From the NCBI GenBank assembly GCA_017544005.1, contig JAFYEZ010000008.1:1-45724 (forward strand): a DNA stretch of 45,724 nucleotides, written 5' to 3'. The stretch is from Bacteroidales bacterium. GTDB lineage: Bacteria; Bacteroidota; Bacteroidia; Bacteroidales; UBA932. Positions 1,098 through 45,323 of the stretch are shown in pieces (the first letter of the stretch is position 1; each line of letters starts with the position of its first letter). The notes under the pieces were generated by a model. It had not been told where the DNA came from and searched no databases. It saw nothing but the letters and a program-made list of their open reading frames with translations. The translations under genes and the position numbers were made by a program.

Positions 1098-1210
1098 ACC
1101 TTGGCATTTAACTAACTGAGAATCAGTCAGTAGCATAAAGTACTACCCCCTTCCAGCGGGGGTAGTACTTTATACATCTCGCTGTGACACAGCGAGATAG
1201 GTGCCAAGGC
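1098..1210 (-). repeat. 113-bp palindromic element, copy 1 (stem version I)
   Basis: The outer inverted repeat is CCTTGGCAT (1099-1107) against GTGCCAAGG (1201-1209). The central hairpin has a perfect 16-bp stem, 1135-1150 with 1158-1173 (ATAAAGTACTACCCCC), and a 7-nt loop. Two side arms also pair: 1112-1119 with 1123-1130 (one mismatch) and 1176-1185 with 1189-1198 (perfect 10 bp), giving a cloverleaf-like fold. Outer and inner palindromes share one centre. Its right-hand base, C1210, is also the last base of the TAG stop of the neighbouring minus-strand gene. Orientation is given relative to the copies that flank the RAYT gene. Confidence 0.93.
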
Positions 1211-1710
1211 TAAAAGTTCAGCGCGAAACCGACGCCATTTTTCGTAGGGCCAAACGAGACGGAAGCGGTCGTGGGCTTAGGTCCATAGCGTCGGGAGTAA
1301 TCATTCAGCATCCAGTCAAGTTCTTTCCGGCCTTTTGTCCATAATGGAATACCTGCGCCCAAACTGCCCCCCAGAGCTACTCCGCCTATGACAGCGGGAA
1401 CAAAACCGCCCTCATCGATTCCATAAGCGAGCAACAAGCCGCTCAAGGGCGCAACGAGCGTGGAAAGGAAAATGCCCCAGCCTTGATTGTCTTTTGCCTT
1501 GCGATAGCGGCTCCCATATACGGAATAGCCGACGGCATCACTGAAAGGGACCCAGCCATTGATACCATAGCCAATCGTGATATTCTGACCGGCCGGATCG
1601 ACAAAGATTTGATTTGTTTCTTGCTCTTGAGGCCATCCATAATTGATGCGCTGGGCATTGGTGACGAGCCCGAGGGAAAGCAGTGCAAAAAACAGCAAGT
1701 ATCTTCTCAT
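1210..1710 (-). CDS. Secreted or outer-envelope protein of unknown function
   Basis: I do not recognise the family. The 166-residue product has a clear signal peptide (MRRYLLFFALLSLGLVTNAQ). Two hydrophobic, glycine-rich stretches lie in the middle (FLSTLVAPLSGLLLAYGI and FVPAVIGGVALGGSLGAG), and it ends in GVGFALNF, with the terminal aromatic residue typical of outer-membrane beta-strands. It may be a small envelope protein. The gene lies between palindromic copies 1 and 2. Its TAG stop shares a base with copy 1, and copy 2 begins about 120 bp upstream of its start. Base composition is lower in GC than that of metK and the susCD operon, which suggests an accessory gene. Confidence 0.75.
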   Translation of the reverse strand: MRRYLLFFALLSLGLVTNAQRINYGWPQEQETNQIFVDPAGQNITIGYGINGWVPFSDAVGYSVYGSRYRKAKDNQGWGIFLSTLVAPLSGLLLAYGIDEGGFVPAVIGGVALGGSLGAGIPLWTKGRKELDWMLNDYSRRYGPKPTTASVSFGPTKNGVGFALNF

Positions 1711-1829
1711 AGCATCAGATGTAAGAATTCATTGAACCATAGTACAAAAACCATACCGTGCGACTTTCATTTCCAACGTCGGGGGCGAACCAGACGCATC
1801 AGCGAAAGCGAAGAGCGAGCGAAAGAGGA

Positions 1830-1942
1830 GCCTTGGCGCTTAACTGACTGTCAATCAGTCAGTAGCTCAAAGCACTACCCCCGCCTGATGGGGGTAGTAC
1901 TTTAAGCATCTCGCTGTGAAACAGCAAGATAGGCGCCAAGCT
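1830..1942 (-). repeat. 113-bp palindromic element, copy 2 (stem version I)
   Basis: The outer stem pairs CTTGGCGC (1832-1839) with GCGCCAAG (1933-1940). The central stem AAAGCACTACCCCC (1869-1882) pairs with 1890-1903 with one C-A mismatch and a 7-nt loop. Side arms are 1843-1850 with 1856-1863 (perfect 8 bp) and 1908-1917 with 1921-1930 (one mismatch). This is the closest relative of copy 1. Unusually for the family it lies between divergent genes, directly upstream of a promoter. Confidence 0.92.
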
Positions 1943-1962
1943 TTTTTTCGAAAATTATAGTG

Positions 1963-1970
1963 TATATTTG
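1963..1970 (+). promoter_or_regulatory. Promoter -7 box (TATATTTG)
   Basis: This is an exact match to the Bacteroidota -7 consensus TAnnTTTG, 26 bp upstream of the ATG at 1996 and about 20 bp after palindromic copy 2. No clear -33 TTTG is visible; a T-run (1942-1948) lies in that area. Confidence 0.6.
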
Positions 1971-1995
1971 CAACGAACCACTACCATTGATTACC

Positions 1996-2574
1996 ATGAA
2001 AAAAGCTTTAGCTGTCATTTGTGCGACGCTGTTCTCGTTCGTATCTACAACTGGGTTTGCGCAGGCGGGGAGATTTATCCCGGAGTTGGAGTTGACGGGA
2101 GGAATCGGGTTCCGTTTTGGACAGATTGCATCCGTCACTCCGCAAATCAGCTTTCTGACGGATATCGGAAAAGGGTTTTCATGTGGACCCGGAATTGGAA
2201 TCCGAGGCGGGATTATCACCGTTGATTATCAGATACCCGATAAAATCAGGCATACACAGGAAGAGTTGGATTTGACGCTATATTACCGGTTCCGTTATGC
2301 GCCGGGCGTTTTTTGTGCTGTTCTTGATGCAGGAGGGGCCTTCGGCCTCTATTCTTATGACAAACGAACCATTCCCTCTGAGTGCAGGTATTCAGGTTTC
2401 TTTGTTGAACCGCAAGTCGGCGCTTGCTTCAATCGATGGTCACTGGCGTTGGGCGTACTCCTAAACCAAACCGATTATACGCAGCATGAACGGAAAGGGG
2501 ATATGGTCTTCAGTACCACGACCAAAGACAAATTGACGCCGGCGCTGACATTGCACGTCGGATACGCGCTGTAG
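1996..2574 (+). CDS. Small outer-membrane beta-barrel-like protein
   Basis: The 192-residue product has a signal peptide (MKKALAVICATLFSFVSTTGFAQ) followed by alternating polar/apolar strands rich in Gly, Tyr and Phe, such as YYRFRYAPGVFCAVLD and LHVGYAL at the C-terminus. This pattern fits an outer-membrane beta-barrel of the porin/PorT type, but I cannot name the family. I chose the ATG at 1996 because it precedes the signal peptide and follows a TATATTTG promoter; an in-frame ATG at 1960 lies before that promoter. It converges on rsmE with a 15-bp gap. Composition is lower in GC than the operon that follows. Confidence 0.72.
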   Translation: MKKALAVICATLFSFVSTTGFAQAGRFIPELELTGGIGFRFGQIASVTPQISFLTDIGKGFSCGPGIGIRGGIITVDYQIPDKIRHTQEELDLTLYYRFRYAPGVFCAVLDAGGAFGLYSYDKRTIPSECRYSGFFVEPQVGACFNRWSLALGVLLNQTDYTQHERKGDMVFSTTTKDKLTPALTLHVGYAL

Positions 2575-2589
2575 TCCTCGGATCAATAC

Positions 2590-3390
2590 TTAATCAGCGA
2601 AATTGAAATAGACGGCGGCGGTTGCAGCGATGGCCGCCGTTTCTATGCGCAGGCGGCTGGAGCCGAGGGAGACGGGCTGCCAGCCGAGGGAAACGGCCTG
2701 GGCGATCTCCGCGCGGGAGAAGTCCCCTTCCGGGCCGATCATCACGATGACAGGACGGGGCGCGACAGCGGCACCTGAGGGGGCGGCGGAAGCCGCGGAA
2801 GCCGAGGGACCAGCAGCAGTGCCTGAGGGGAAGGCCTCGCGCAGAACTTCCGTCAGCGGACGTTTCTCCACGCCCAGCGAAGCCGTCTCATCGCAATAGC
2901 AGATGCAGCGCAGGGCATCGTCTGCGGCGTGGGCCGCCAGAAAATCAGCCACCCGGGCGGCTGGCTCCAGCGTGGGAACCGTCCCCTTGTGCGACTGCTT
3001 AGCCGCGCTCACGAGAATGCGCTCCACCCGCTCCGGTTTGAAGACCTTGCGCTCGGAATACTCCCCGAAGAGCGGGGTGATGATATCGACGCCGATCTCG
3101 GTGGCCTTTTCAGCAAACCATTCGAAACGGTCAATATTCTTGGGCGGGGCGACCGCCATCTGAAGGTGGTAGGGATGCGAACCGTAGCCCTCCTGCCGCT
3201 CCAGGATCCGGAAGCGGAGGGCACGCGGGTCGGCATCGAGTATTTCGCAGCGGTAGAGGCAACCCGCACCGTCCACGACGTGGATCGTCTCCCCCGCCCG
3301 GTGCCGCAACACCCGGACGCAGTGGGAAGATTCCTCTGCGTCCAGGGTCGTGGCGCCGCTTGCGATATCGCGGCAGTAGAAAAGTTCCAT
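2590..3390 (-). CDS. rsmE: 16S rRNA m3U1498 methyltransferase
   Basis: RsmE methylates U1498 of 16S rRNA using SAM. The 266-residue product shows the SPOUT-class C-terminal knot motifs IGPEGDF (218-224) and SLGSSRLRIETA (241-252), and the N-terminal PUA-like part with HCVRVLRHRAGE. Residues 188-211 form an Ala/Ser/Pro/Gly-rich insertion just before the knot (SGTAAGPSASAASAAPSG), probably a flexible loop. The gene begins only 4 bp after the stop of the BACON lipoprotein gene, so it appears to be the last gene of the susCD operon, an odd place for a housekeeping methyltransferase. It may also have its own promoter, which I did not find. Confidence 0.95.
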   Translation of the reverse strand: MELFYCRDIASGATTLDAEESSHCVRVLRHRAGETIHVVDGAGCLYRCEILDADPRALRFRILERQEGYGSHPYHLQMAVAPPKNIDRFEWFAEKATEIGVDIITPLFGEYSERKVFKPERVERILVSAAKQSHKGTVPTLEPAARVADFLAAHAADDALRCICYCDETASLGVEKRPLTEVLREAFPSGTAAGPSASAASAAPSGAAVAPRPVIVMIGPEGDFSRAEIAQAVSLGWQPVSLGSSRLRIETAAIAATAAVYFNFAD

Positions 3391-3394
3391 CCGC

Positions 3395-4864: not shown

Positions 4865-4875
4865 AGGGCAATCCG

Positions 4876-6288: not shown

Positions 6289-6303
6289 CGTGCTGTCCTC
6301 CTT

Positions 6304-7218: not shown

Positions 7219-7238
7219 AAATGTACGCTCCTTATTCA

Positions 7239-8831: not shown

Positions 8832-8843
8832 GATCATCCTCCT

Positions 8844-15310: not shown

Positions 15311-15423
15311 GCCTTGGCGGTCAACTCGCTGAGGGACAGCCGATAACATAAAGCACTGGTACCCAAAACGGATACCAGTGCTTTATACATCTAGTTGATT
15401 TACTGTGAGTTGTCCGCCAAGGC
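15311..15423 (-). repeat. 113-bp palindromic element, copy 3 (stem version II)
   Basis: Outer stem GCCTTGGCGG (15311-15320) with 15414-15423, continued by CAACT/AGTTG (15322-15326 with 15408-15412). Central stem 15348-15364 with 15370-15386 (ATAAAGCACTGGTACCC, one mismatch), loop 5 nt. Its reverse complement aligns closely with copies 4 and 5, including the right-hand motif CTGTCCCTCAGCGAGTT. It lies between two convergent genes (S9 peptidase and C69 dipeptidase), 37 and 21 bp from their stops, and could also end transcription from both sides. Confidence 0.94.
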
Positions 15424-15444
15424 CGTTCGGAGAGGCCCCGGCCG

Positions 15445-17121
15445 CTACTTCACCTCTTTGACCTTGACGACATCCCCGTGGTCCTGGACGATGGCGCGGA
15501 GCCAGCGCTCGCGGAACTTGGGATGGAGCGGGGAGGCGGGAATGTCCTTGCCGGAGCCGTTGTCGCGGAAGGAGCCGTCGGCGTTCTGCCGTTTGACGTT
15601 GCCGTCCATAAACTTCACCAGCAGATAGTTCTCCAGTTCCTTCCAGTCGCTCATCAGCCGCTCGCAGCGGTCTCGGCAGAACTCGGTCATCGCGATGTGG
15701 GCGCTGCGGCTATTGCCGCCGGCAAGTATCGCGCCGAGGCGCGCATCCATTTCCTGCAGGCGGGAGAGTCCGTCGGCCTCCCAGGCGTCGATCCTGGTCC
15801 GGATCTCGGGCGCGACGCGGTCGTAGAAGAGGTATGCGAAGTGGGTGACGCGGTTCACCAGCCAGAAAGCGGAGGTGTCGCTGTATTTGAGCATCGAGCC
15901 GTTGCCCTCGGCAAAGCACTTCGGAACGGCATTGATACCTACGTAGATAGGGGTCAGCGGGGAGGTGGCGGCGTCATCCACGCCGAACCAGGTGACGGCG
16001 CCGATCGCATCGGGCAGCCAGCCGCGCGCCTGGGCCACGAACCAGAAACCGGTCTGCTGCGTGGCAATCGAACGCTCGAAGACATACTTCAGGCCGTCGA
16101 CTTCCCAACTCATCGGACGCCAGCGGTAGGGCAGACGGCTGGGGCCGGCACCGACATCCTCGGAAAAGTCCATCGGGGTGCCCTCGAAGTGGTCCCTCAT
16201 CACGGCGGCCACGTCTGCCACGGTCACCGGCTTTTCCGGTTTGACATAGAGCGGCATCTTGTTGCGCGGGTTGTAGCCCATTGCGAAGTCGAGGTAACGG
16301 TCCGCCTCGAAGTTGGCTCCGCCCAGCAGCCGCAGGGCGCTCCAGGCGCGGGCTTCGCAGGCACGCATTCCGCCGAAATCCAGCGGGTTATAGACATCGC
16401 AGAAGCTGAAATCCGCATCGCTGCCGCTGTAGAAACCGGCCTTGCGGGCAAAGGAGATGACATCCTTGGCGTAGAGGCAGTTCTCCGGATCGTTCAGCGG
16501 GAAGTGGTGGATGCGGCTTTGGTTGGCGTGGGCGCAGACATAGCCGTCGGGAATGCGGACGGCCACCCAGACAGCACCCTTTTCATAGTCGCCCTTGCCG
16601 ATGATCTCCATGATCCAGCATTCGTCCTTGTCGGCAATTGAGAAGGATTCGCCGGAGGAGGCGTAACCGTAGGTCTGCAGCAGATCGTCGATGACCCGGA
16701 TGGCCTCACGGGCGGTCCGGGCTCTCTGCAGCGTGATATAGATGAGCGATCCGTAATCCACCACGCCGTTGGGCTTCTCCAGCTCCGCGCGGCCGCCGAA
16801 GGTGGTCTCGCCGATGATTAGCTGATGCTCGTTGATGTTTCCCACCGTCTGGAAGGTATGCGCCACCTGCGGGATCTGCCCCAGGTACCGCCCGGTGTCC
16901 CACTCATAGACGTTCAGCATCTCTCCGCGGGCCCAGTCCCGGGCCGGGTGGAAATAGAGTTCGCCATAGAGCTGGTGGGAGTCGGCGGCGTAGCTGACCA
17001 TGCAGGAGCCGTCGGCGGAAGCGCCTTTGGTGACGATGACATTGGTGCAGGCGCGCGTATCCGGCGCGACGGAAAGCAGGAGGGCGACGAGCGCCACGAT
17101 AAAGAATCGGATCGTTTTCAT
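15445..17121 (-). CDS. C69-family dipeptidase
   Basis: A 558-residue exported Ntn-hydrolase of the PepD/C69 family, which cleaves dipeptides. After the signal peptide (ending DTRA) comes Cys25 in ACTNVIVTKGASADGS; in this family the exposed N-terminal Cys is the nucleophile. Further family blocks are GETTFGGRAEL, SGESFSIADKDECWIMEI and VCAHANQSRI. A sequence close to the -7 consensus (TACTTTCG) is present on the minus strand upstream. It faces the S9 peptidase gene, with palindromic copy 3 between. Together with the S9 and S46 enzymes it suggests complete breakdown of imported oligopeptides. Confidence 0.94.
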   Translation of the reverse strand: MKTIRFFIVALVALLLSVAPDTRACTNVIVTKGASADGSCMVSYAADSHQLYGELYFHPARDWARGEMLNVYEWDTGRYLGQIPQVAHTFQTVGNINEHQLIIGETTFGGRAELEKPNGVVDYGSLIYITLQRARTAREAIRVIDDLLQTYGYASSGESFSIADKDECWIMEIIGKGDYEKGAVWVAVRIPDGYVCAHANQSRIHHFPLNDPENCLYAKDVISFARKAGFYSGSDADFSFCDVYNPLDFGGMRACEARAWSALRLLGGANFEADRYLDFAMGYNPRNKMPLYVKPEKPVTVADVAAVMRDHFEGTPMDFSEDVGAGPSRLPYRWRPMSWEVDGLKYVFERSIATQQTGFWFVAQARGWLPDAIGAVTWFGVDDAATSPLTPIYVGINAVPKCFAEGNGSMLKYSDTSAFWLVNRVTHFAYLFYDRVAPEIRTRIDAWEADGLSRLQEMDARLGAILAGGNSRSAHIAMTEFCRDRCERLMSDWKELENYLLVKFMDGNVKRQNADGSFRDNGSGKDIPASPLHPKFRERWLRAIVQDHGDVVKVKEVK

Positions 17122-17174
17122 TCTTCAAAAATTTTCCCGAAAGTAACAAAAACTGCGGGCAATTCAAAAAAACG

Positions 17175-17182
17175 TACCTTTG
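17175..17182 (+). promoter_or_regulatory. Promoter -7 box (TACCTTTG)
   Basis: Exact TAnnTTTG match, 25 bp upstream of the ATG at 17208. No clear -33 box. Confidence 0.55.
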
Positions 17183-17207
17183 TCAGGTAAAACAGAACAG
17201 GTATCTC

Positions 17208-17636
17208 ATGAAACGAATTGTATTTCATCTGGCGTTCGTCGCGCTGACGCTCTTTGCGACAGCCGCTTCGCTTTCTGCGCAGAATCCGGACGAAAAGCCC
17301 AAGAGCATCCCCGAGATTGCCGCCGAGCGGGCGGATGAACTGATGAAATACCTCAAACTGGAGGATTACCAGGTGTTCCAGATCGATTCCACCATGTCCC
17401 ACAACATGCAGGCCATGCAGGATGAGCTGGACCGTATGCAGAAGGCTGGTATCAGCAATCCGGATTTTTACGGAGCCACGATCGACCGTTGGTACAATGC
17501 CACCGACTCCACCTTCGAGCATATCTTCACGCCCCAGCAGTGGACCCGGTATATCAAATCCACCTACGGAAAAGCCAAGCGGCAACGCGATAAACGCATT
17601 GCCGCCTGGAAAGCCAGAACCGAGGCTGCCCGCTAG
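17208..17636 (+). CDS. Small secreted helical protein of unknown function
   Basis: A 142-residue product with signal peptide (cleavage near SLSAQ) and a mature part that is predominantly helical and charged: KSIPEIAAERADELMKYLKL, then a long helix with QAMQDELDRMQKAG and a basic tail (GKAKRQRDKRIAAWKA). The outline is like small periplasmic Spy/CpxP-type proteins common in Bacteroidota, but no diagnostic motif (such as LTxxQ) is obvious, so I leave it unnamed. Its stop and that of the facing barrel gene share the palindrome CTAG (17633-17636), so the two genes overlap tail to tail by 4 bp. Confidence 0.7.
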   Translation: MKRIVFHLAFVALTLFATAASLSAQNPDEKPKSIPEIAAERADELMKYLKLEDYQVFQIDSTMSHNMQAMQDELDRMQKAGISNPDFYGATIDRWYNATDSTFEHIFTPQQWTRYIKSTYGKAKRQRDKRIAAWKARTEAAR

Positions 17637-18859
17637 AAGAGAAATCCCGTATTGATGTAGAGCGAACCGAACTTGGTTCCGTTGCGGTCCTGGGCATTGA
17701 AAGGAATGCCGTATTCGACCGCAATGATGAAGTTGCGGTTCATGATGAAACGGAATCCGCCGCCCGCTGCAACGTGCATTCCCTCCTTGGCGGGGTAGCC
17801 GCCGCCGTAGGCCTGCAGCACGCGGCCGCCGTCGAAGAACCCGCTCAGGGCGAGTCCCACATTTTGGTTGAAGAGGTGGAAATCGATGAAGCGGTAGCGC
17901 AACTCCGTGTTGAAATAGCCGATGCTGCGGCCCTGGATGCGGTCGCGGACGATACCGCGGATGGTGCGGTAGCCGCCGAAGCCGTCCCGGTCGTAGCCGT
18001 AGCCGAGCACGGTTTCATAGGGCAGCATGTAGAAGGCAGGATCCCAGGCAAAACCCTGGGCGTTCAGGCGGTATGCAAAGACGAGCCGGTCGCCGACGAG
18101 GGGCAGGTAGTGGCGCAGGGCAAAGTAATATTTGATATACGGGGTGCTCGTGCCAAGCCAGCCGGGGGCAAATTCGGCGTTGAGCTCCGCCCAGATGCCG
18201 CGCGAGGGGGCAGCTTCGAAGTCGCGGCTGTCGTACATCAGACCGGCGCGCAGGGAGCTGGAAATGCCACCGTCAGCCTGATCGGCCGGGATGGTTCCGT
18301 CGGCGAGGCAGAGGTCGAACAGGGTGGGAACGGTTTTGCCGTCCGGTTTGAAGGAGTTGATGGCGAAGTATTTAAAGTGGTAGCCCGCCTTCCAGTAGAA
18401 GTGCGGCAGGATCTCGCCGGTGAAATCTGCCTTGAAGTAGGGCACCGACCGGCCGATCCGGTAGTAGGCCGACGAGAGCGATGCGTCGTAGTTGGTCGCA
18501 TAGCCGTTGAATCCGTAGAAATCCAGCGCCTTCTCGTGCTGGAACATGCCCGCCACGCAGAAGCGTACGCCCGGAATCAGGGTGCGGTTGTCGTAGTTGA
18601 CCGTGAAGAGCATCGACCCCTTGGTGAAGAACGACGCCTCGAGGTACCACTGCGACTTGGGAACCGGATACCAGCTGCCGTCGCCGAAGTTGTAGATATT
18701 CAGCAGCGCCCCGTACTGAAAGCCCTTGTCCTGGTCGTAGGCCACGATGGGAAGCGGACCGAACGAGAGCCCCTTCTTGACGATATCGTCTGCGCTGCGT
18801 CCGGGCACCTCCGGAAGCAACAGCGCGAGGGTGAGGAAAAGTACAAGGTATTTTTTCAT
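17633..18859 (-). CDS. Omp85/BamA-type outer-membrane barrel without POTRA domains
   Basis: A 408-residue outer-membrane protein with a signal peptide (to about residue 20) and a 16-strand surface-antigen (D15/Omp85) barrel. The segment GYRTIRGIVRDRIQG corresponds to the conserved (V/L)RG loop motif of Omp85 barrels, and the chain ends in a Phe (INTGFLF), the usual assembly signal. There is no room for POTRA domains, unlike BamA; POTRA-less members are common in Bacteroidota and poorly understood. Its ATG overlaps the stop of the acyltransferase gene (ATGA, 18856-18859), so the two are translationally coupled. A role in lipid or outer-membrane traffic with that enzyme is an inference. Confidence 0.85.
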   Translation of the reverse strand: MKKYLVLFLTLALLLPEVPGRSADDIVKKGLSFGPLPIVAYDQDKGFQYGALLNIYNFGDGSWYPVPKSQWYLEASFFTKGSMLFTVNYDNRTLIPGVRFCVAGMFQHEKALDFYGFNGYATNYDASLSSAYYRIGRSVPYFKADFTGEILPHFYWKAGYHFKYFAINSFKPDGKTVPTLFDLCLADGTIPADQADGGISSSLRAGLMYDSRDFEAAPSRGIWAELNAEFAPGWLGTSTPYIKYYFALRHYLPLVGDRLVFAYRLNAQGFAWDPAFYMLPYETVLGYGYDRDGFGGYRTIRGIVRDRIQGRSIGYFNTELRYRFIDFHLFNQNVGLALSGFFDGGRVLQAYGGGYPAKEGMHVAAGGGFRFIMNRNFIIAVEYGIPFNAQDRNGTKFGSLYINTGFLF

Positions 18860-20157
18860 AAAGTGTCAATCTTGGTTTTCAGGGAGTCGTACTGCCTGCG
18901 AACGGCCGCTCCGCGCCGGGTGAGGCTCCGCCAGTGGGATGCCGTTACGCGCCAGAGCTCAAAGAAATCGTAGCTGACCATGGGAGCGGGCAGCAGCAGG
19001 AGTGCGGCGGCCAGCGCCCAGTACCCGGGCAGGAAGCAGAAGAGCAGTATGGTCTCGATGATATAGAGCAATGTCCAGAGAACCAGGGAAGTACCCATAC
19101 GGGCCGTGTTGCGGAAGGCGGCGTCCTTGATGCGGCCCGCGATCTTTTCGGCCGTCAGCCAGACGGGCAGCGAGGCGAGGGCGCAGGCGGCGAACAGAGG
19201 GAGCGAAACCAGGCAGAGCAACGTGTTCCACAGGGCTGCCCGGAGCGGATGCTGCCTGTGGAGCGAGTGGAGGCTGATGCGGGCTGCGCGCCGCTCGTGG
19301 CGGAAGGCGAGCGCTGACTCATAGAGCGCCGCGGCCGCTTCCGGCTGCGCCGCGCCGAAGGCTTCGATGCGTGCAATTGCACTCCGGTTGGCCTCCAGCC
19401 GCTGTTTCATCCGCAGGGCGGGAATCCTGCCGCTGGCAATCTTGGCCAGTTCCCAGATGGCCTCGTAGTGGGCCTCGTCGCGCACGCAGGAGATGGTTTC
19501 GGAGAGTTTCTCGGTGAGCAGCGCCCGGAGCCCCTGCATAAGGTCGTGGTCGTTCAGTTCGGGATGTGCCTGGATATAGGCCGTGGCGTCGATCGGCTCG
19601 CCGACCTGGGCCAGCAGGGTGCCGCGGTAGCGGAAGAAGTCGCCGTACTCCAGTCCGATCGGAACAATCCAGACCGGACGGTCGCCGCCGGTGGCCTGAT
19701 AGGTTCCCAGCGCGATGCGGGCCACCCCCTTGCCGATGGGGAGCAGTCCGTGCATCGGGCAGTGCGTTCCCTCCGGCATGATGCAGAAGTGGCAGCCGCT
19801 GGCGAGCACCTCGATGGATTTTTCGATGGTCTCCTCCGCTTTATACATATTCTTCAAGCCGTCGCGGCGGCGGTTGATCGGCATGATTTTCAGGTAGTTC
19901 AGGATAGAGGCGACCTTCGGATTCCGGAAGACGTCGGCCCGGGCCACGAACACCTTCCGCCGGCGGCTCATCGCCAGCACGGCAAGCGGATCCATCAGGG
20001 CGTCACAGTGGTTGGGGGCGTAGATGACGGCTCCCTCAGAGGGAATCTTCTTCAAACCGAGATAGCGGACCCGGCGGTAGGAGCCTCGGATGAAGGCATC
20101 CGTCCAGAAGCGGAGAAGCGAGTAGCCCAGGGACTTTTCGTAGATTTTCTTGCCCAT
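18856..20157 (-). CDS. PlsC-type lysophospholipid/glycerol acyltransferase
   Basis: A 433-residue membrane-bound acyltransferase of the LPLAT superfamily, which transfers acyl chains to glycerol-phosphate or lysolipid acceptors. The acyltransferase core covers about residues 35-215: PNHCDALMDP (49-57; His to Asp spacing one residue longer than HX4D, as I recall for this subgroup), VARADVFRNP, and FCIMPEGTH with PEGT. The C-terminal part (about 290-400) has hydrophobic membrane segments. It is larger than classical PlsC (about 245). It overlaps the downstream Omp85-type gene by 4 bp. A near-consensus -7 box (TACCTTGC) lies upstream on the minus strand. Confidence 0.9.
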   Translation of the reverse strand: MGKKIYEKSLGYSLLRFWTDAFIRGSYRRVRYLGLKKIPSEGAVIYAPNHCDALMDPLAVLAMSRRRKVFVARADVFRNPKVASILNYLKIMPINRRRDGLKNMYKAEETIEKSIEVLASGCHFCIMPEGTHCPMHGLLPIGKGVARIALGTYQATGGDRPVWIVPIGLEYGDFFRYRGTLLAQVGEPIDATAYIQAHPELNDHDLMQGLRALLTEKLSETISCVRDEAHYEAIWELAKIASGRIPALRMKQRLEANRSAIARIEAFGAAQPEAAAALYESALAFRHERRAARISLHSLHRQHPLRAALWNTLLCLVSLPLFAACALASLPVWLTAEKIAGRIKDAAFRNTARMGTSLVLWTLLYIIETILLFCFLPGYWALAAALLLLPAPMVSYDFFELWRVTASHWRSLTRRGAAVRRQYDSLKTKIDTL

Positions 20158-20202
20158 ACCTGATTATTTGTGCCGCAAGGTACGAAATAATGTCGAATTT
20201 GT

Positions 20203-20210
20203 TAAATTTG
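20203..20210 (+). promoter_or_regulatory. Promoter -7 box (TAAATTTG) almost touching a start codon
   Basis: Exact TAnnTTTG match ending 4 bp before the ATG at 20215. If used, the transcript would begin at or just after that ATG, giving a leaderless message or translation from the second ATG at 20230. Confidence 0.5.
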
Positions 20211-20214
20211 CGGT

Positions 20215-21201
20215 ATGGCATACACGCTGATGTTCTACAACCTGGAGAACCTCTACGACACCGTGGACGACCCGCTCACAAACGACGATGAGTACACGCC
20301 CGGCGGGGAAAAACGGTGGACCCAGGAACATTATCTCACCAAGCTCAACAACTTGAGCGACGTGGTCGGCACCGTCGCAAGCGCCTATGGCGGGTTTCCG
20401 GTGGTGATCGGCGTCTCGGAGGTCGAGAACATGAGCGTGATGCGCGATCTGGCCGCCCGGAAGCGGATGCAGGGCGGGCACTACAAGTGCATCCATTATG
20501 AATCGAACGATGCCCGCGGCGTGGATGTCGGCGCTTTCTACCGCCCCGACAAGTTCACCCTGCTGGGCAGCGAACCGGTCAAGCTGGTGCTTCGCAGCGG
20601 CCGGGAATACATCGGCCGGGATATCCTTGCGATGTGGGGACTGCTGGACGGCGAGATGTTCGCATTCTACATCTGCCACTTCCTCTCCCGCCGGGCCGGG
20701 ATCGAGTCCTCCGCCGGATTCCGCCGCGCCGGCGCCGAGACCGCGCGTGACCACGCGGCCGCCCTGGCCAAGCGCTATCCGGGGCTGAAGGTGGTGATCA
20801 TGGGCGACATGAATGACAATCCGGACGACGTCTCCCTGTCCGAGCTCCTGCCCGCCCGCCGCAACCTGTTCGCCGTCAAGCCCGGAGAATACTTCAATCC
20901 TTTCTGGCAGCTGCACGACGAGGGGATCGGCAGCAGCCTCCACGGCAGCCGATGGACGATGTACGACAACATCATCGTCAGCCATTCACTGCTCGACCAG
21001 TCCTCCACCGGCGGCCGCACCCTCTTCGGCGGCCATACCTCCCGCGGCCTCACCTTGGCCAAGACCGACGCCCGCCACTGGGGCGAGGTCTTCCGCCGCA
21101 GCTTCATGATGCAGAAAGGCAAGCCCAAGCGCTGCTACAACGGCAACCACTTCCAAAGCGGCTACAGCGACCACCTCCCGGTCCTGGTCAAACTCCGCTA
21201 G
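20215..21201 (+). CDS. Endonuclease/exonuclease/phosphatase-family protein
   Basis: A 328-residue metal-dependent phosphoesterase of the DNase I-like superfamily, without a signal peptide. Motifs in order: FYNLENLYDTVDDP near the N-terminus, IGVSEVEN (metal-binding Glu), the strand FYICHFLSRRAG, VIMGDMNDNPDD (catalytic Asp/Asn) and GYSDHLPVLV (catalytic Asp-His). The substrate cannot be read from sequence; relatives act on DNA or phospholipids. The second in-frame ATG (20230) would still leave the first motif intact and better fits the -7 box at 20203-20210. The gene ends 39 bp before palindromic copy 4. Confidence 0.92.
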   Translation: MAYTLMFYNLENLYDTVDDPLTNDDEYTPGGEKRWTQEHYLTKLNNLSDVVGTVASAYGGFPVVIGVSEVENMSVMRDLAARKRMQGGHYKCIHYESNDARGVDVGAFYRPDKFTLLGSEPVKLVLRSGREYIGRDILAMWGLLDGEMFAFYICHFLSRRAGIESSAGFRRAGAETARDHAAALAKRYPGLKVVIMGDMNDNPDDVSLSELLPARRNLFAVKPGEYFNPFWQLHDEGIGSSLHGSRWTMYDNIIVSHSLLDQSSTGGRTLFGGHTSRGLTLAKTDARHWGEVFRRSFMMQKGKPKRCYNGNHFQSGYSDHLPVLVKLR

Positions 21202-21240
21202 CCCCTCGCCCGGGGGCGTCGCCGTGTCGTTCCTAGTCGG

Positions 21241-21353
21241 GGTTTGGCGGCTAACCATCAGTATGTCAGCGAAATGATGAAAGCACTGGTATCCGTTTGG
21301 GGTACCAGTGCTTTACATTATTAACTATCCTACAGCGAGTTAACCGCCAAGGC
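21241..21353 (+). repeat. 113-bp palindromic element, copy 4 (stem version II), left of the RAYT gene
   Basis: Outer stem TTTGGCGGCTAAC (21243-21255) with GTTAACCGCCAAG (21339-21351), with one mismatch and one G-T pair. Central stem AAAGCACTGGTATCC (21280-21294) with 21300-21314, one G-T wobble, loop GTTTG. It lies in the same orientation as copy 5, from which it differs at many positions. It ends about 70 bp before the RAYT start; the RAYT promoter lies just outside it. Confidence 0.95.
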
Positions 21354-21420: not shown

Positions 21421-22410
21421 ATGAAGGGACGAGACTCTTTCGACAGCCAGGCTGTCTATCACATCTACCAACGGACGATTGACGGTTTTCTGCTGTTCTA
21501 CCGCGGAAAAGATTACATCATTTTCTATACGATGGTTGCCGTTGCGGCAAGACGCTGTGGAATCAAAGTACTGGGATTCTGTCAGATGGTAGATCATACC
21601 CATCTTTTGGTAAAAGCCCCTTCCCTGGATAGTATCCGTCGCTTCGTCCAATACTACAACAAGTGCTACACTGTGTATTTCCATCAACAGTATGGAACGA
21701 GCGGAGAACTCTTCGCCGGTCCTTTCGGTATCGCCAAAAAGGTGGGCGCCAAGGCCATACGGACCGCCATCGCCTATCTCTACAACAATCCCGTCGAAAA
21801 GAAACTCTGCCGTCGGGCGGAGGAGTATCATTGGAACTACCTGGCTTATGCGGACAATCCGTATCCTTTTTCCGAGCGGCGCAACTTGGCGCACTCCTCC
21901 AACGCTTTTCGCCGGGCGGTCCGCGAAATAACTGATCTCTCCTCGAGAAACCGCCCCTTGAATGGGGTGATGCTGTCTCAAATAGAGGCCAGGCTGGATT
22001 CAGAGGAGATCAAGCGCCTCGTTGACAGGGTCGTCGGAATCTACCAACTGGTCGACTATCCGTTGATGCTTTCTTTCTATGGAGATTATGAAACGATGCT
22101 GTTGGCCTTTCACTCGAACACGGGAAGCGAATATGACATCGACGAGGAGTTTTCGCCGGAGTCGGACACGATCTATTACCGAATCGCAAAGGCTGCCGTG
22201 AATCTTTTTGGGAAGGATTGTTTCAACGGGATATTGTCCGCGACAGAGGCGCAACGGGAAAAGTGGGCGGCCAGACTCGCGAACTACACCCGCGCCTCCC
22301 GCCGCCAGCTGTTCAAGTTTCTGCATCTGCCTCGACCGGTCCCCGTGAGAGCTGAGGCACCTTCTTCGTCCCGCGTTCCGGCCCCTCCGTATCCCCGTTC
22401 GCCCCGTTGA
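21421..22410 (+). CDS. REP-associated tyrosine transposase (RAYT, TnpA_REP family)
   Basis: A 329-residue HUH-type single-strand nuclease of the Y1/IS200-like superfamily. The HUH motif is H59-T60-H61 in QMVDHTHLLVKA. A further family block is YGTSGELFAGPF, and IAYLYNNPVEKKLC corresponds to the RAYT Y-I-x-x-N-P-V signature, in which Tyr119 is the likely catalytic residue. RAYTs bind and cleave REP palindromes and are thought to move them. Residues about 150-329 form a C-terminal extension of unknown function ending in a Pro/Ser-rich tail. The gene sits between two like-oriented version II palindromes; copy 5 begins at the base after its TGA. GC is lower than its neighbours. ATG 21421 follows an AGGAGG. 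Confidence 0.92.
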   Translation: MKGRDSFDSQAVYHIYQRTIDGFLLFYRGKDYIIFYTMVAVAARRCGIKVLGFCQMVDHTHLLVKAPSLDSIRRFVQYYNKCYTVYFHQQYGTSGELFAGPFGIAKKVGAKAIRTAIAYLYNNPVEKKLCRRAEEYHWNYLAYADNPYPFSERRNLAHSSNAFRRAVREITDLSSRNRPLNGVMLSQIEARLDSEEIKRLVDRVVGIYQLVDYPLMLSFYGDYETMLLAFHSNTGSEYDIDEEFSPESDTIYYRIAKAAVNLFGKDCFNGILSATEAQREKWAARLANYTRASRRQLFKFLHLPRPVPVRAEAPSSSRVPAPPYPRSPR

Positions 22411-22523
22411 GCCTTGGTGGCTAACTATCAGTGAATCAGTGAAATAATGAAAGCACTGGTATCTGTTTGGGGTACCAGCGCTTTGTGTTATCGACTGTCC
22501 GTCAGTGAGTTAGCTGCCAAGGC
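22411..22523 (+). repeat. 113-bp palindromic element, copy 5 (stem version II), right of the RAYT gene
   Basis: The outer stem is 16 bp long, 22411-22426 with 22508-22523, with two G-T wobbles (T22418-G22516 and G22419-T22515), so pairing is kept where the sequence differs from other copies. Central stem 22450-22464 with 22470-22484 (AAAGCACTGGTATCT side), loop GTTTG. It starts directly after the RAYT stop codon. Confidence 0.95.
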
Positions 22524-25841: not shown

Positions 25842-25954
25842 GGCTTGCAATGTAAATCACTGGCACACTGAAAGTTAGTCAATGTCCTACCCTCCACTGC
25901 AGGGGGTAGGACATTGTGTTATTGCCAGAGAATCAGTAACTTGCATTGCAAGGA
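25842..25954 (+). repeat. 113-bp palindromic element, copy 6 (divergent, stem version IV)
   Basis: Outer stem CTTGCAATGTAA (25844-25855) with 25941-25952 (one G-T pair); the termini differ from the family (GCAATG instead of GGCGGC) but stay complementary. A second stem CTGGCA (25860-25865) with TGCCAG (25923-25928) replaces the side arms. Central stem CAATGTCCTACCC (25880-25892) with 25904-25916, perfect 13 bp. Length and centre agree exactly with the other copies. Its right end supplies a TTG at a -33 distance from the sigma-factor promoter. Confidence 0.85.
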
Positions 25955-37128: not shown

Positions 37129-37130
37129 GG

Positions 37131-38261: not shown

Positions 38262-38273
38262 CCTTTCGCTGTG

Positions 38274-40282: not shown

Positions 40283-40298
40283 GCCGCGGGGAAGGCGC

Positions 40299-41216: not shown

Positions 41217-41273
41217 ATCTTTAATCGTTTTTTCGTTTTGGGGTGCCTTTCCCCTTCGGGGAATGGCAATTTG

Positions 41274-41281
41274 CAAATTTA
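41274..41281 (-). promoter_or_regulatory. Promoter -7 box (TAAATTTG) for the nine-gene operon
   Basis: Exact TAnnTTTG match on the minus strand, 57 bp upstream of the nucleotidyltransferase ATG. No good -33 box at the expected spacing. Confidence 0.6.
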
Positions 41282-41314
41282 CGCCATATTTCGGGAAATA
41301 ACATATTTATTTTT

Positions 41315-41322
41315 TACCTTTG
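41315..41322 (+). promoter_or_regulatory. Promoter -7 box (TACCTTTG) for the C26-like hydrolase gene
   Basis: Exact TAnnTTTG match, 30 bp upstream of the ATG at 41353, in an AT-rich stretch divergent from the nine-gene operon promoter. Confidence 0.6.
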
Positions 41323-41352
41323 CTCCCGGTCCGAAAACCCACAATACCCGAT

Positions 41353-42144
41353 ATGAAAAAGATCCTATTATCGCTCGCAGCAATGATTGCAACCGTCAGC
41401 CTTTCCGCCAAGGCCCCCATCGTGGGCGTCTCCGGCTATGTTGAAGGCAGTACCAACCGCGTCAACACCACCTACACCAGCGCAGTCCGTCTGGCTGGCG
41501 GCGTCCCCCTCATTATTCCGGTAACCAACTCCGACGCCCAGATCGAGGCCGTCGTGAACGCGATCGACGCGCTCGTGATGACCGGCGGTTCAGACTTCGA
41601 CCCGCTCAAGTATTTCAACGAAGAGCCGATCCGCGACTTGGGCGATGTCGTTCCCACCCGTGACGAATTCGACGTGAAACTGATCCGCGCCGCCGTCAAG
41701 CGCGGCATTCCGGTCCTGGGCATCTGCCGCGGCGAACAGCTGATGGCCGTCGCCTTCGGCGGCAGCCTCTGGCAGGATATCCCCTCGCAGATCAAATCCA
41801 GCTATATCAAGCATCGCCAGAGCAATACTCCGGGCTCCTACGGCACCCACAGCATCAAGATTGAGAAAGGCAGTTTCCTCGAGAAAGCCCTCGGCGCCAA
41901 CAAGGCCGTGGTGAACTCCTTCCACCACCAGGCCATCAAAGCCGTTCCGCAGGGATTCAAGGTGATTGCCAAGTCTCCGGACGGCATCATCGAAGGCGTT
42001 GAAAGAGTCGCTCCGCTGAAGAACTACGAAGACGGCGGCGGCATCATCATCGGCACCCAGTTCCACCCCGAAGCCCTCTGCACCGGCGGTGAGACCATCT
42101 TCACCAACATCTTCAAGATTATCGTCGAGGCCGCCGGCAAATAA
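41353..42144 (+). CDS. Exported gamma-glutamyl-amide hydrolase-like protein (peptidase C26)
   Basis: A 263-residue class I glutamine-amidotransferase-fold hydrolase with a signal peptide (MKKILLSLAAMIATVSLSA). Catalytic candidates: Cys125 in LGICRGEQL, and the His-Glu pair in GTQFHPEAL near 236. It resembles the gamma-glutamyl-gamma-aminobutyrate hydrolase (PuuD) branch; an exported form would act on gamma-glutamyl compounds in the periplasm. The ATG at 41353 follows the promoter at 41315. Its last 21 codons recur, degenerate, at 45143-45211, upstream of the first TonB receptor gene. Palindromic copy 7 starts 21 bp after its stop. Confidence 0.92.
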   Translation: MKKILLSLAAMIATVSLSAKAPIVGVSGYVEGSTNRVNTTYTSAVRLAGGVPLIIPVTNSDAQIEAVVNAIDALVMTGGSDFDPLKYFNEEPIRDLGDVVPTRDEFDVKLIRAAVKRGIPVLGICRGEQLMAVAFGGSLWQDIPSQIKSSYIKHRQSNTPGSYGTHSIKIEKGSFLEKALGANKAVVNSFHHQAIKAVPQGFKVIAKSPDGIIEGVERVAPLKNYEDGGGIIIGTQFHPEALCTGGETIFTNIFKIIVEAAGK

Positions 42145-42164
42145 ACAACATAACAGGCCTCACA

Positions 42165-42277
42165 GCCTTGGCGGACAAACTCCTGACCCATAGGCAACTA
42201 CGCAAAGGCGCACCCCACTTCTGACGGGGTGCGCCTTTGCATTACAATCTATCTCTCAGCGTGTTAGCCGCCAAGGC
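42165..42277 (-). repeat. 113-bp palindromic element, copy 7 (stem version III)
   Basis: Outer stem GCCTTGGCGG (42165-42174) with 42268-42277, perfect 10 bp. Central stem GCAAAGGCGCACCCC (42202-42216) with 42226-42240, perfect 15 bp, loop 9 nt. It lies between convergent genes: C26-like hydrolase (stop 42144) and TonB receptor (stop 42298). Loop and stem sequence differ from versions I and II, while length and centre are the same. Confidence 0.94.
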
Positions 42278-42297
42278 CAGAAGCGAAGACCCCGGCA

Positions 42298-45039
42298 TTA
42301 ATTGAGATTCATCCTGACGCCAAGGGATACCGTACGGGAGGGAACCTTTCCACTCATGAGCGTGGATGTTCCGTAGGTCACCATTCTGGGATAGAGCCCC
42401 TGACGGGCGGAAATCATCAGGAAATTATTTGCGGAGACATAAAGTGTAATTCCTTTAATTCCCTTTTGCCATCCCCTGATGTCATACGAGATACACGCCC
42501 GCGTGAGCTCAAGCATATCTGACGATACTAACCAGCGCGAAGTAGTATAGGACGCCCATCCGTTGCCGCTATCCAGTTGCGGGATATCTGTCTGGTCTCC
42601 AACTTTTTCCCAGGAATTGGCAAGGTCTGTATGAAGCCGATGCATGGTGTCGGGATTATTGGTTATCATCAGATCATGATACCCCCAGTCAAGAATCAAG
42701 CCCCCAAACTGGAAATAACCATCCAGCGCAAGGGAGAGCGCCTTATACTTGAAAGATATAACGAATCCGCCCACAACGGGCGGGGCGCTGGGACCGGAAT
42801 GCTCTCTTTGAGCATAAGTCGCTTTATTCGTACACATTTCGCCGTTCACCTTGTAGTAATTGGCAGACGAAGAAAAGGATTCATAATTCGGATCGTCAGG
42901 AGGGAGGGCTTTGTAAATGCACTTTCCGGTAGCGGGATCCACACCAAGCCAGACCGGAAGATAATAATCCCCAATAGCATAGCCCTCTTCATAGATAACA
43001 TTCCCCGATCTGATCACACCGCGCGGGATGCTCATGATGCGATTATGAATGCAACTGAAATTTCCGCCGAAGGATAGAAACGAATTACTGGTTTTCAATA
43101 AGGTAGCATCCACAGATGCTTCCCATCCACGGTTGCGGATCGTGGGTCCGAAAGTATTTAAACCCCCATCAGCCATGGTTATAAAAAAAAGCGTGTCGCT
43201 GACCCGCCGGTCAAAAAAACAAAAGCTTCCGACAACTCTTTTTGCCAACCCGAAATCCAATCCGGCATTCCACTCCCCAAAATACCCTCTTCCCTGATTG
43301 GACATCTTGCCACAACTGATACGAATCCGGGCCTTGTCCAACCAGGGAATGGCAGCACAGAAGTTTTCCCGGTCAATCATCCACGAAACAGATCCACCAT
43401 ACGTAGGGAGACCGGGTTGACTGGAAGTATGTGTTCCTGCCGGAAAAATACTGGTGTTTTCCTCAGTTCGATTCCGGGATAGTTGCCTATAGTTCAAAGA
43501 AAATGCGTATTTTCCCTTGAATACATAGTCCGCGTTCAAAAACCAATCCTCATAGAATGTGTCTGTTTTTGTCGTATCACGTAGGGTACTGTTTTCGTAG
43601 TGGTTGAGCAACTGGAACTCTTGGTATGTTTCATAGGAAAAACTACGGTGTTCCGCTCTTACACCGAAATGATGATCGCCGACGGTTTTCCGATAGCGGA
43701 CGGTCTCTTTGACACAGAAATCTGTTTCATCCGTATTGTAACAGTATTCATAGTTTCCATCTATCCCACGGGCAAACGAACGGCGACTATTTGACAGAAG
43801 GCCATTCCCAGTCACTTCAAACAAAAGATCCGGTATCGGTTCCCAACTGAGAGAGACAAGTCCCTGTCCCATTTTTTCTTCATCATAATCCTCCTGCCAC
43901 TTCTTCAATGATTCGATGGCGTTATAATTCTGGTACAGATTCCTGGATGTCCTTATATACCCATTCTGATCGGTAACAAAGCCGAAATCCAGTTGTCGTT
44001 CTTCATTCGACAACATGTAACTGCCATCTTCCGCGTGTTGGTGAACCGGATATATATTGCCTATCATCCGCACGAATGTGAAGGGATCCACCTCAGAATC
44101 CCTTGATGTCTGTATATCCACCGGCCCTGTATTTCTTGAAACTGCGCCTTGAAAAGAAGCCGAAATACGAAGATTCCGGAGCGGAGACGCTTGTGAGAAG
44201 AGAGATGTGGTATATCTGTGTCCTCCGATACCGACAGCGTAACTGTCTTCATCGGTTATGCCAACGGATCCGCGCAAGTTAGCCTTCTTCCAGCCGCCTT
44301 CAATGGTGACCAGACCATCGTGGCGCAATCCTATTCGCTCCAACTGTTTGCGCCAGTCCAAATCTTCGCCCCAAAGCAGGCCTGCCGCCGGATTGACGGT
44401 TCCATCCTTCGGATCGAAGACCTGAGTAATGGGACGGTCAAACGGGTTAATTTTCATATAATCCGTCAAAAGCCACTGACTAATATCGTTCCCGTTCGGA
44501 GCCGTCCCACTGCTTAAGAGGTGACGGTTGTAGTAAGCCTGCCACCAGTGTTGCAGGTATTGCGGCAAATCTGCCGTTTTGTAATCTGGCCCCTGGCGTG
44601 CGACAATACCGGAGTCCCATTTGACAGAAACGGACCACCCTTCCGATGAACCTTTTTTCAAACGGATAGAAATGATTCCTCCGGATGCGTTTGGCTCATA
44701 GCTCAGAATACCCGCCACATCCTTGAGAACGGTTATGCTCTCTATGTCCTGAGGATTGATGAGGGATAGTGATCCGAAATACGGAACGCCGTCGATCAAC
44801 GTAAGCGCTGAATTCGAGATTAAGTCATTCCGGCCACGGATGACAACCCCCGGTTCGGAACAGGGCATGCCGTCGGTCGCTGTAATATGAACCCCTGGAA
44901 TCCTGCCGGTGAGCAAATCCAGAAGATGACTCTGTGTCGTAAGCGAATCAACCATGACAGTATTCGGGTCCCACTCTTGCGCCACGGCATTCACCATTGC
45001 AAGATACATCAGCAAGACGAAATAAAGGGCCTTTTTCAT
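42298..45039 (-). CDS. TonB-dependent receptor (SusC-like), orphan and short
   Basis: A 913-residue outer-membrane receptor. Signal peptide (MKKALYFVLLMYLAMVNAVAQ), then directly the plug domain (LLTGRIPGVHITATDGMPC, VVIRGRNDL, GVPYFGSLSLINPQDIESIT), and a barrel ending SLGVRMNLN. The carboxypeptidase-like N-terminal domain of usual SusC proteins is absent and no susD follows. The start at 45039 is set by the signal peptide and a promoter at 45094-45125; the frame extends further upstream only as an artefact over the C26 remnant. GC is low: I count 22 G/C in 43501-43560, against 37 in 38041-38100 of the housekeeping operon. This points to acquisition from elsewhere. Substrate unknown. Confidence 0.9.
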   Translation of the reverse strand: MKKALYFVLLMYLAMVNAVAQEWDPNTVMVDSLTTQSHLLDLLTGRIPGVHITATDGMPCSEPGVVIRGRNDLISNSALTLIDGVPYFGSLSLINPQDIESITVLKDVAGILSYEPNASGGIISIRLKKGSSEGWSVSVKWDSGIVARQGPDYKTADLPQYLQHWWQAYYNRHLLSSGTAPNGNDISQWLLTDYMKINPFDRPITQVFDPKDGTVNPAAGLLWGEDLDWRKQLERIGLRHDGLVTIEGGWKKANLRGSVGITDEDSYAVGIGGHRYTTSLFSQASPLRNLRISASFQGAVSRNTGPVDIQTSRDSEVDPFTFVRMIGNIYPVHQHAEDGSYMLSNEERQLDFGFVTDQNGYIRTSRNLYQNYNAIESLKKWQEDYDEEKMGQGLVSLSWEPIPDLLFEVTGNGLLSNSRRSFARGIDGNYEYCYNTDETDFCVKETVRYRKTVGDHHFGVRAEHRSFSYETYQEFQLLNHYENSTLRDTTKTDTFYEDWFLNADYVFKGKYAFSLNYRQLSRNRTEENTSIFPAGTHTSSQPGLPTYGGSVSWMIDRENFCAAIPWLDKARIRISCGKMSNQGRGYFGEWNAGLDFGLAKRVVGSFCFFDRRVSDTLFFITMADGGLNTFGPTIRNRGWEASVDATLLKTSNSFLSFGGNFSCIHNRIMSIPRGVIRSGNVIYEEGYAIGDYYLPVWLGVDPATGKCIYKALPPDDPNYESFSSSANYYKVNGEMCTNKATYAQREHSGPSAPPVVGGFVISFKYKALSLALDGYFQFGGLILDWGYHDLMITNNPDTMHRLHTDLANSWEKVGDQTDIPQLDSGNGWASYTTSRWLVSSDMLELTRACISYDIRGWQKGIKGITLYVSANNFLMISARQGLYPRMVTYGTSTLMSGKVPSRTVSLGVRMNLN

Positions 45040-45093
45040 CGCTCCAGCGATTCTTTCATAGGTTCGACTCTGAAATTCAACGACTTCCTCCGT

Positions 45094-45125
45094 CAAAATT
45101 AAACAATAGTTTACAATAATCCAAA
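45094..45125 (-). promoter_or_regulatory. Promoter of the orphan TonB receptor gene (TTTG-N20-TAATTTTG)
   Basis: On the minus strand TTTG (45122-45125) and TAATTTTG (45094-45101) are 20 bp apart, a full match to the Bacteroidota -33/-7 consensus. It lies 55 bp upstream of the ATG at 45039 and just inside the C26 remnant. Confidence 0.7.
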
Positions 45126-45142
45126 TTAGCATCAGAATAGTC

Positions 45143-45211
45143 ACCGGCGGTGAAACCATCTTCGCCAACATCTTCAAACTGCTGGTGGACGCCGCAGCCG
45201 CAGCCAAATAG
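45143..45211 (+). pseudogene. Remnant of the 3' end of a C26-like hydrolase gene
   Basis: Read on the plus strand these 23 codons give TGGETIFANIFKLLVDAAAA and an AK end before a TAG, against TGGETIFTNIFKIIVEAAGK and TAA at 42082-42144 of the intact gene. Similarity starts abruptly at CACCGGCGGTGA, with nothing of the gene upstream. The remnant is followed directly by palindromic copy 8, as the intact gene is followed by copy 7 after a 20-bp gap. Its stop TAG shares its G with the first base of copy 8. The divergence (for example ATT ATC against CTG CTG) shows that the copy is not recent. Confidence 0.88.
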
Positions 45212-45323
45212 CCTTGGCGGCTAACTCGCAGAGAAATAGCCGATTATGCAAAGGCGCCCCCCCATTCGAGAGGGGTGCGTCTTTGCATATCGTACTGTAT
45301 TACAAGTGGTTAACCGCCAAGAC
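45211..45323 (-). repeat. 113-bp palindromic element, copy 8 (stem version III)
   Basis: Outer stem GCCTTGGCGGCTAAC (45211-45225) with 45309-45323, two C-A mismatches. Central stem 45246-45262 with 45272-45288 (ATGCAAAGGCGCCCC core), one mismatch and one G-T pair. It is the same version as copy 7. Its right end is translated: the last codons and the TAA of the neighbouring receptor gene lie inside it. Confidence 0.93.

Follow-up and report, generated by a model that had tools for sequence, protein, structure and literature searches.

The window analysed here, a 45,724-nucleotide stretch of DNA from a Bacteroidales bacterium, carries eight copies of a double palindrome with the same length and the same centre, and the question is what kind of element keeps such a geometry while its sequence diverges. 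Copies 1, 2, 3, 6, 7 and 8 lie on the plus strand (1098..1210, 1830..1942, 15311..15423, 25842..25954, 42165..42277 and 45211..45323) and copies 4 and 5 on the minus strand (21241..21353 and 22411..22523). Copies 1 and 2 share the CTACCCCC subtype and a four-way cloverleaf as the predicted single-strand fold, copy 3 is of the GGTACC subtype, and copy 6 is a divergent subtype with the outer stem TTGCAATG; copy 7 stands between convergent genes. A sequence-only reading had described eight 113-bp copies with a fixed inner block, one deviating copy and a common midpoint, and we confirmed this description: all eight are 113 nt and align without gaps over 113 columns, the inner block of seven copies spans 35 nt, with AAAG at columns 40-43 and CTTT at columns 71-74, the copy at 25842 carries AATG/CATT, and the inner and outer stems are centred on the same point (pair sum 114). 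The sequences on either side of copies 7 and 8 resemble each other (compared over 42081-42443 and 45142-45458; 54 nt at 83% and 58 nt at 79% identity), so one of them may derive from a segmental duplication.

The stems of the eight copies pair beyond what their base composition gives. Over the 45 named pairs, 79.2% of cells are paired. Sliding the partners by 1-3 columns lowers this to 33-43%, and letter shuffles give 69.8% (sd 1.5), none of 500 being as high; the covariation score was 0.379 versus 0.195 in shuffles (0 of 500 as high). Two weaker measures were matched more often: 15 of 500 shuffles reach the 21 pairs changed on both sides, and 74 of 500 are as high as the 38 further pair types. 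Folding z-scores, calculated for single-strand DNA, ranged from -5.1 to -10.6; the exact cloverleaf was the predicted fold of two of the eight copies, and the rest gave mixed or long-hairpin folds.

Copies 4 and 5 flank a gene at 21421..22410 (plus strand, 329 aa), copy 4 occupying its upstream flank and the first base of copy 5 directly following its stop codon. The ORF is intact, with the likely start at the ATG at 21421, and encodes an HUH/Y1 transposase of RAYT type with the motifs DHTH and YLYNNP at an HUH-to-Tyr distance of 60. The protein matches Pfam PF01797 (1.6e-7) and NCBIfam NF047646, REP-associated tyrosine transposase, with 26.2 bits (5.9e-6); the latter is below the cut-off of 80, so we use the label RAYT-type and do not file it as a member of that equivalog. 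The PDB sequence search gave weak matches to transposases (best 0.0034), and the PHROGs search gave no match. Comparison with the 94%-identical orthologue of a sister genome yielded dN 0.033 and dS 0.296 (one pairwise estimate), and this low dN/dS suggests that the gene is under purifying selection. [DN]HxH and YxxNNP are present in 19 of 19 aligned homologues, and the HUH-Tyr distance is 57-60 in all those homologues, 33 of 36, in which both motifs were found. An IS200/IS605 insertion sequence was rejected on the grounds of a single full copy in the window's genome, where the nearest other homologue is 29% identical and four more are weaker. A defence-system identity was rejected as well; its sole match, SspG (E 0.007), covers a C-terminal stretch and was taken as chance.

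Since a RAYT-type gene lies between two copies, the repeats appear REPIN-like and not an orphan family. We consider it very probable that they are a REPIN-like, RAYT-mobilised, non-autonomous miniature element, half of a REPtron-like pair, on the basis of the architecture, the covariation of two stems, the transposase between copies, co-occurrence, co-divergence, site polymorphism and the low dN/dS.

The element is dispersed in the window's genome (1.57 Mb, 85.8% complete). The covariance model R1, built from the window's eight copies only, gave at least 51 matches at E<=0.1 in at least 26 loci, with 150 of 168 candidates scored; owing to the near-symmetry of the element, 25 of the 26 loci match on both strands. 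These loci fall into 18 of 113 bp, seven of 111 bp, which form a second subfamily differing in outer and central sequence, and one of 67 bp, a deletion form that lacks the central hairpin and is the weakest R1 match (E 0.015). The single length of 113 bp described for the window has to be amended at the genome scale to two, 113 and 111, plus the 67-bp deletion form. As a length check free of the length-fixed model, the pattern CTTGGC-N{82..112}-GCCAAG, which allows 31 spacings, gave 13 forward matches in the genome, ten of them copies, all with a 97-nt gap; the remaining three (spans 100, 102 and 120) resemble coding sequence, and the reversed control pattern gave eight matches. Two genomes of a second genus, g4, gave 66 model matches with length modes of 112 (38 matches) and 109 (11), all within 107-114 bar three (100, 99 and 73), and the 73-bp match again misses the central hairpin. 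The Rfam 15 search of the window gave 0 matches at the gathering score.

Elements also stand beside relatives of the transposase. A homologue at E<=1e-20 is present in 18 of the 149 family genomes; of the 38 matches in total, 30 are included in the locus counts below. At E<=1e-3, R1 detected elements at 14 of the 35 other loci with a Y1 homologue, on both sides in nine cases, and the broader model R2, built from an alignment of diverse elements (A2, below), detected them at 23 of 32; nine of these 23 loci gave R2 no sequence, one of the nine (L063) being nearly identical to a trained locus. The layout of the flanking elements is the same and their sequence is different. No elements were found by R2 at four generic Y1 genes of the window's own genome (L046-L049), and none at E<=1e-3 within ~1.5 kb of the homologues (E<=1e-20) at L045, L064, L068, L076 and L077, of which L076 and L077 are otherwise typical loci. 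At L045 (G000:C50), where the 29%-identical paralogue lies, the hairpins on its flanks (1272-1335 and 2434-2473) are of another kind, TTTTGCCC(C/T)GGGG...CCCCGGGGCAAAA, and the element model gives no better than E 0.42.

Element divergence follows transposase divergence (Mantel r 0.69, p 2e-4) over 26 loci, a set of element-bearing loci only from which L063 was omitted as a near duplicate. The sister genome's second transposase and that of genome G015, 76% identical to each other, have the CTACCCC subtype in common, and the window's transposase, with 54-57% identity to those two, has the GGTACC subtype. Presence follows as well: within the genus (40 genomes, including the sister genome, since G163 has the coordinates of G149), elements occur in 23 of 23 genomes with the transposase (A3, E<=1e-50) versus 4 of 17 without it (Fisher 2e-7), shared ancestry of the genomes remaining in this count as in the family count below and in the divergence statistics. 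The transposase-bearing genomes of the genus have 6 to at least 95 model matches each, both strands counted, and the genomes with elements and no close transposase are G159 (68 matches), G052 (36), G177 (10) and G092 (2).

Across the family, R2 detected elements in 43 of 149 genomes, that is in 17 of 18 with the transposase (G031 has none by R2) versus 26 of 131 others (Fisher 6e-10). Because R2 was partly trained on transposase-flanking elements, this presence is inflated, and the many dispersed copies are not; the six transposase-bearing genomes of the window's genus in this set have 22 to at least 25 scored R2 matches each. A sample of 295 genomes from the order yielded the transposase (E<=1e-30) in the window's own genome only, and just one other genome has weak element matches (E 5e-6); the search used stricter filters with 12 candidates scored per genome, and the stems diverge freely, so the absence is limited to this level of sensitivity. 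Within one family the distribution looks patchy, and outside it the system looks rare.

The placement of the elements brings in another reading. According to home-made, rough gene calls with orthologous copies kept, 50 of 52 elements in two genomes are intergenic (no gene overlap above 20 bp). Where both neighbours were called (49 elements), 31 lie between convergent and 18 between tandem genes and none between divergent ones, although copy 2 would count as divergent if the caller-omitted ORFs at 1210-1710 (minus) and 1960-2574 (plus) are genes; the 139 background gaps above 100 bp, element-holding gaps included, divide into 37 convergent, 67 tandem and 35 divergent. The distance to a gene's 3' end is at most 40 bp in 40 of 82 cases, and the nearest 5' end is 66 bp off. 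This fits insertion at gene ends, or tolerance limited to them, and it also suits elements that are mainly functional RNA: selection on transcripts would maintain them as bidirectional terminators or as stabilisers of 3' ends, and the transposase link would be secondary. The central stem with its A-rich 5' and T-rich 3' edges, a terminator scan that flagged the central hairpins of two of four elements, and a sister-genome element standing where the window's genome has a hairpin and T-run are also consistent with RNA. However, terminator-like sites were not in excess (14 versus 11.7 expected, sd 3.7, in 13 kb with four copies), a single one of the 225 standard-paired cells of the central stem is G-U, this reading leaves the outer stem and the side motifs unexplained, and element presence tracks the transposase. 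We regard an RNA function as the main explanation as possible and not probable; a terminator role for the element is possible.

The architecture was examined in the alignment A2, hand-assembled from 35 diverse elements over 118 columns (flanking elements with clear palindromes and the 111-bp copies of the window's genome). Stem sequence is little shared among relatives, with outer stems such as CTTGGCGG, CTGGAG, CTGCAACG and CTGCCGC, and the half-unit consensus is SSSTGSMR-nn-TAA-nnnn-YTGA-nnn-TCAG-nnnn-WW-nnnn-AAA, in which T5, G6, A13 and A28 are conserved at >=0.90. Covarying pairs lie in the outer (columns 5-11) and central (columns 43-49) stems, and over the whole structure 253 cells are changed on both sides versus 126 in shuffles and 91-101 with slid partners; by the weaker measures, 68 of 500 shuffles were as high for pairs changed on both sides and 62 of 500 for further pair types. 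RNAalifold predicted both stems and one lone pair. The side motif YTGAnnnTCAG is conserved in sequence over the 35 elements and its stem hardly covaries; its foot is T/A-rich, with no GT[AG]G column run beside it in the consensus, GT[AG]G occurring somewhere in 31 of 70 half-units. Summed excess pairing in the 35 elements favoured the left-with-right register (sum 119), and local cloverleaf registers were weak or outside the best, whereas in the eight window copies a left-with-right side-arm hairpin was paired in 59.1% of cells versus 59.2% in shuffles. In the cloverleaf the side motif would form a small hairpin of its own, and in the alternative, a long imperfect hairpin, the two mirror-image motifs would pair with each other; given the scarce covariation and the favoured register, a local side hairpin is possible rather than demonstrated.

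Pairing in the two long stems is strict. The central stem has 224 Watson-Crick, one G-U, three A-C and nine other cells, and the outer stem 222, eight, six and nine, respectively. Near-absence of G-U and near-symmetry favour DNA, or copying between arms, over one RNA strand, which is less likely. Selection on a folded strand, DNA or RNA, had been proposed from the eight copies; the geometry does extend genome-wide and to related genera, with both stems covarying, and the RNA form of the proposal is disfavoured. The pairing could also be mutational and not selected. Quasi-palindrome correction, the copying of one arm of a palindrome onto the other, would keep stems perfect and mimic compensatory changes, in agreement with the near-pure Watson-Crick central stem, the mostly so outer stem and the restriction of covariation to the two long stems, the side motif taking no part. 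We consider this explanation unlikely, as it does not account for the fixed total length, the side-motif offset, the conserved side-motif sequence of the 35 elements and the transposase association.

The sister genome, goat-rumen MAG RGIG3539 (G149), is largely syntenic with the window. The segment between the inverted copies 3 and 4 (15311..21353) is inverted in its interior, to 21213, relative to G149, an inversion of about 5.9 kb with a copy at each boundary; further synteny breaks lie at elements, the compared stretches having been selected round elements and being a biased sample. G149 has an element at a gene's stop codon, its first G completing the stop, and the window's genome has none there; the gene's last codons read like groEL, which we presume it to be. 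A second site is probably also empty, with one flank aligning poorly. At L125 (~7004-7039), an element-free site of the window's genome, we observed a hairpin with a T-run; the hairpin arms (CTTGGCA/TGCCAAG) are identical to the outer arms of some elements, which may reflect a remnant or chance. Passive palindromes spread by segmental duplication and rearrangement, with the transposase an accidental neighbour, would explain the synteny breaks and the similar stretches around copies 7 and 8, but such an origin is very improbable given that subtype tracks transposase lineage, that co-occurrence is 23/23 versus 4/17, and that single elements are present or absent with the neighbouring sequence in place.

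One site has a full 111-bp element in the window's genome and a 40-bp palindrome in G149, a symmetric internal loss of 71 bp. Its junction can be placed in two ways that differ by one base, as 20+20, which puts CT at both cuts, or as 21+19. We infer the polarity and cause of this single event; the excision-like loss could be replication slippage over the palindrome. We saw no insertion flanked by a clean target duplication. In three genomes the strict short-derivative pattern found nothing but the 40-bp case, a short-derivative scan of 688 kb found the 40-bp case and the 67-bp form (control 0.33 per pass), and genus g4 adds three more short derivatives (73, 99 and 100 bp). The g4 genomes G097 and G108 are mostly too diverged for such comparison; two sites are conserved with exact flanks, one is a probable empty site (L212/L182), and two intervals have different subtypes. 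Different subfamilies occupy related intervals at L110 9550/L128 9347 (one flank only aligned), L188 9995/L204 10012 and L189 9903/L200 9939 (where the interval length differs too), as if gene-end slots were reused, or elements replaced, in related genomes. The interval between metK and an RNA methyltransferase gene was compared between the window (878-2598) and L117 (412-2065): the window has copies 1 and 2 and the ORFs at 1210-1710 and 1960-2574, both lacking a Pfam match, and in the sister genome this place is taken by a second RAYT-type gene (54% identical), itself flanked by elements.

How a REPIN-like element of this form would work can be outlined. We infer a single-stranded substrate, its binding and cleavage by the transposase, and transposase-driven spread. 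The element, 113 or 111 bp long in the window's genome and roughly 107-114 bp in relatives, consists of two inverted half-units, each running inward from an outer stem arm through the side motif with its T/A-rich foot to a central-hairpin arm starting AAA. Once the region is single-stranded, as it may be on the lagging-strand template, folding of the outer and central stems would expose both side motifs; the transposase would bind these, cut via its HUH/Tyr centre and move the element to new intergenic sites, chiefly gene 3' ends, the fixed length holding two recognition motifs in register. More doubtfully, the family may represent a new class of RAYT substrate, in which outer and central stems of free sequence act as a ruler spacing two YTGAnnnTCAG recognition motifs, whether in a cloverleaf or a long imperfect hairpin, and the transposable unit is the inner 71-bp core, cut after CT in each of the two side motifs and leaving a 40-bp outer palindrome that can be refilled. 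If true, this would explain the exact length, the CT-to-CT loss and the related sites with different subfamilies.

According to the consulted part of PMC8266576, the way in which TnpAREP enzymes spread REPs has yet to be elucidated. The 26 transposase loci with an adjacent element, one geometry with changing stems, amount to a natural mutagenesis series that separates the letters that seem to be recognised (side motif, outer-arm TG, T/A foot) from those that only pair; they also predict specifically that cleavage falls at CT inside the side motif, and related genomes provide empty, refilled and deleted sites on which to test this. An intergenic repeat and some rearrangement breakpoints would thereby be explained in genomes of this family.

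Several features of REPINs and REPtrons were found here: a transposase flanked by the repeat family (21241-21353 and 22411-22523), two repeat units in inverted orientation around a hairpin-forming spacer of set length, and many extragenic copies, though fewer than in classical REP families; GT[AG]G at the hairpin foot is replaced by a T/A-rich foot. REPINs are described, in the part of PMC3116915 consulted, as inverted, RAYT-linked, extragenic units of fixed spacer length with compensatory hairpin changes, and excision-like deletions are reported there for Pseudomonas and relatives. By comparison with that part of PMC3116915, our element has no GTRG-type REP unit, possesses a separate strong central hairpin and an outer closing stem, is about 110 bp in total and is present in tens rather than hundreds of copies. 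The sequence-only reading knew of no described Bacteroidota element with this geometry; lineage and layout appear to be new, but the kind is known from REPINs, as that portion of PMC3116915 describes them.

Among named classes, the window's protein has the class 2 Y1 (RAYT/TnpAREP) signature, an HUH motif and Y---NP in a Y1_Tnp domain. TnpAREP subclass 2.6 (RAYT group 5) of Bacteroidetes has, in the consulted text of PMC6006769, 'atypical secondary structures' flanking the gene, without GT[AG]G and with copies elsewhere in the genome. That subclass was rejected for the window's transposase by distance and Tyr motif: its HUH-Tyr median is 82 versus 57-60 here, its motif YIH[QN]NP versus mostly Y[LVI]xNNP (YLYNNP in the window), and a table value of 179, read as length, compares with 329 aa in the window; the flanking structures, compared by their description in that part of PMC6006769, may share the layout of our element. 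Subclass 2.1 (RAYT group 1) is similar in its longer protein, C-terminal extension and Y---NP; the same text gives HUH-Tyr medians of 58-67 for most subclasses, 2.1 not being named there among the exceptions, and describes no REP-like sequence alongside 2.1 genes, whereas elements flank the window's gene (PMC6006769, as consulted).

TIRYTs and TIRtrons resemble our system in that RAYT-like genes are flanked by long inverted repeats, which are self-complementary in part, bear no relation to GTAG REPs and in some cases occur repeatedly in the genome; the species named in the portion of PMC3733652 used (Stenotrophomonas, Koribacter, Acidobacteria, Pseudomonas) are unlike ours, the repeats were compared by description, and the TIRYT motif GGGGWSAS is absent from the element consensus. 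The E. coli TnpAREP is likewise an HUH/Tyr enzyme acting on single-stranded hairpin DNA and cleaves at CT, which is found at the 71-bp loss junction under one of its two placements, but the E. coli REP is GTAG-dependent and a single bulged hairpin, unlike the element here (PMC8266576, in the part consulted). No description of this element was found in the literature covered, the PMC6006769 supplement and most subscription journals lying outside that scope. The element is provisionally filed as REPIN-like, outside any named subclass, and it would differ from known systems in lacking the GT[AG]G foot, in having a closing stem as well as a distinct central hairpin, and in its transposase branch.

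Two further observations concern the surroundings of the elements. Flanks of 44 elements from the window's genome, G149 and G015, with seven orthologous copies dropped, are enriched in C at -9 to -7 (0.42-0.48) and in T at -5 to -2 (0.38-0.45) on both outer sides, hinting at a target preference or at a longer, looser element. At L120 (8819-9946, G000:C43), a 113-bp and a 111-bp subfamily element bracket a small two-gene unit, presumably a toxin-antitoxin pair as its translations resemble HicA/HicB.
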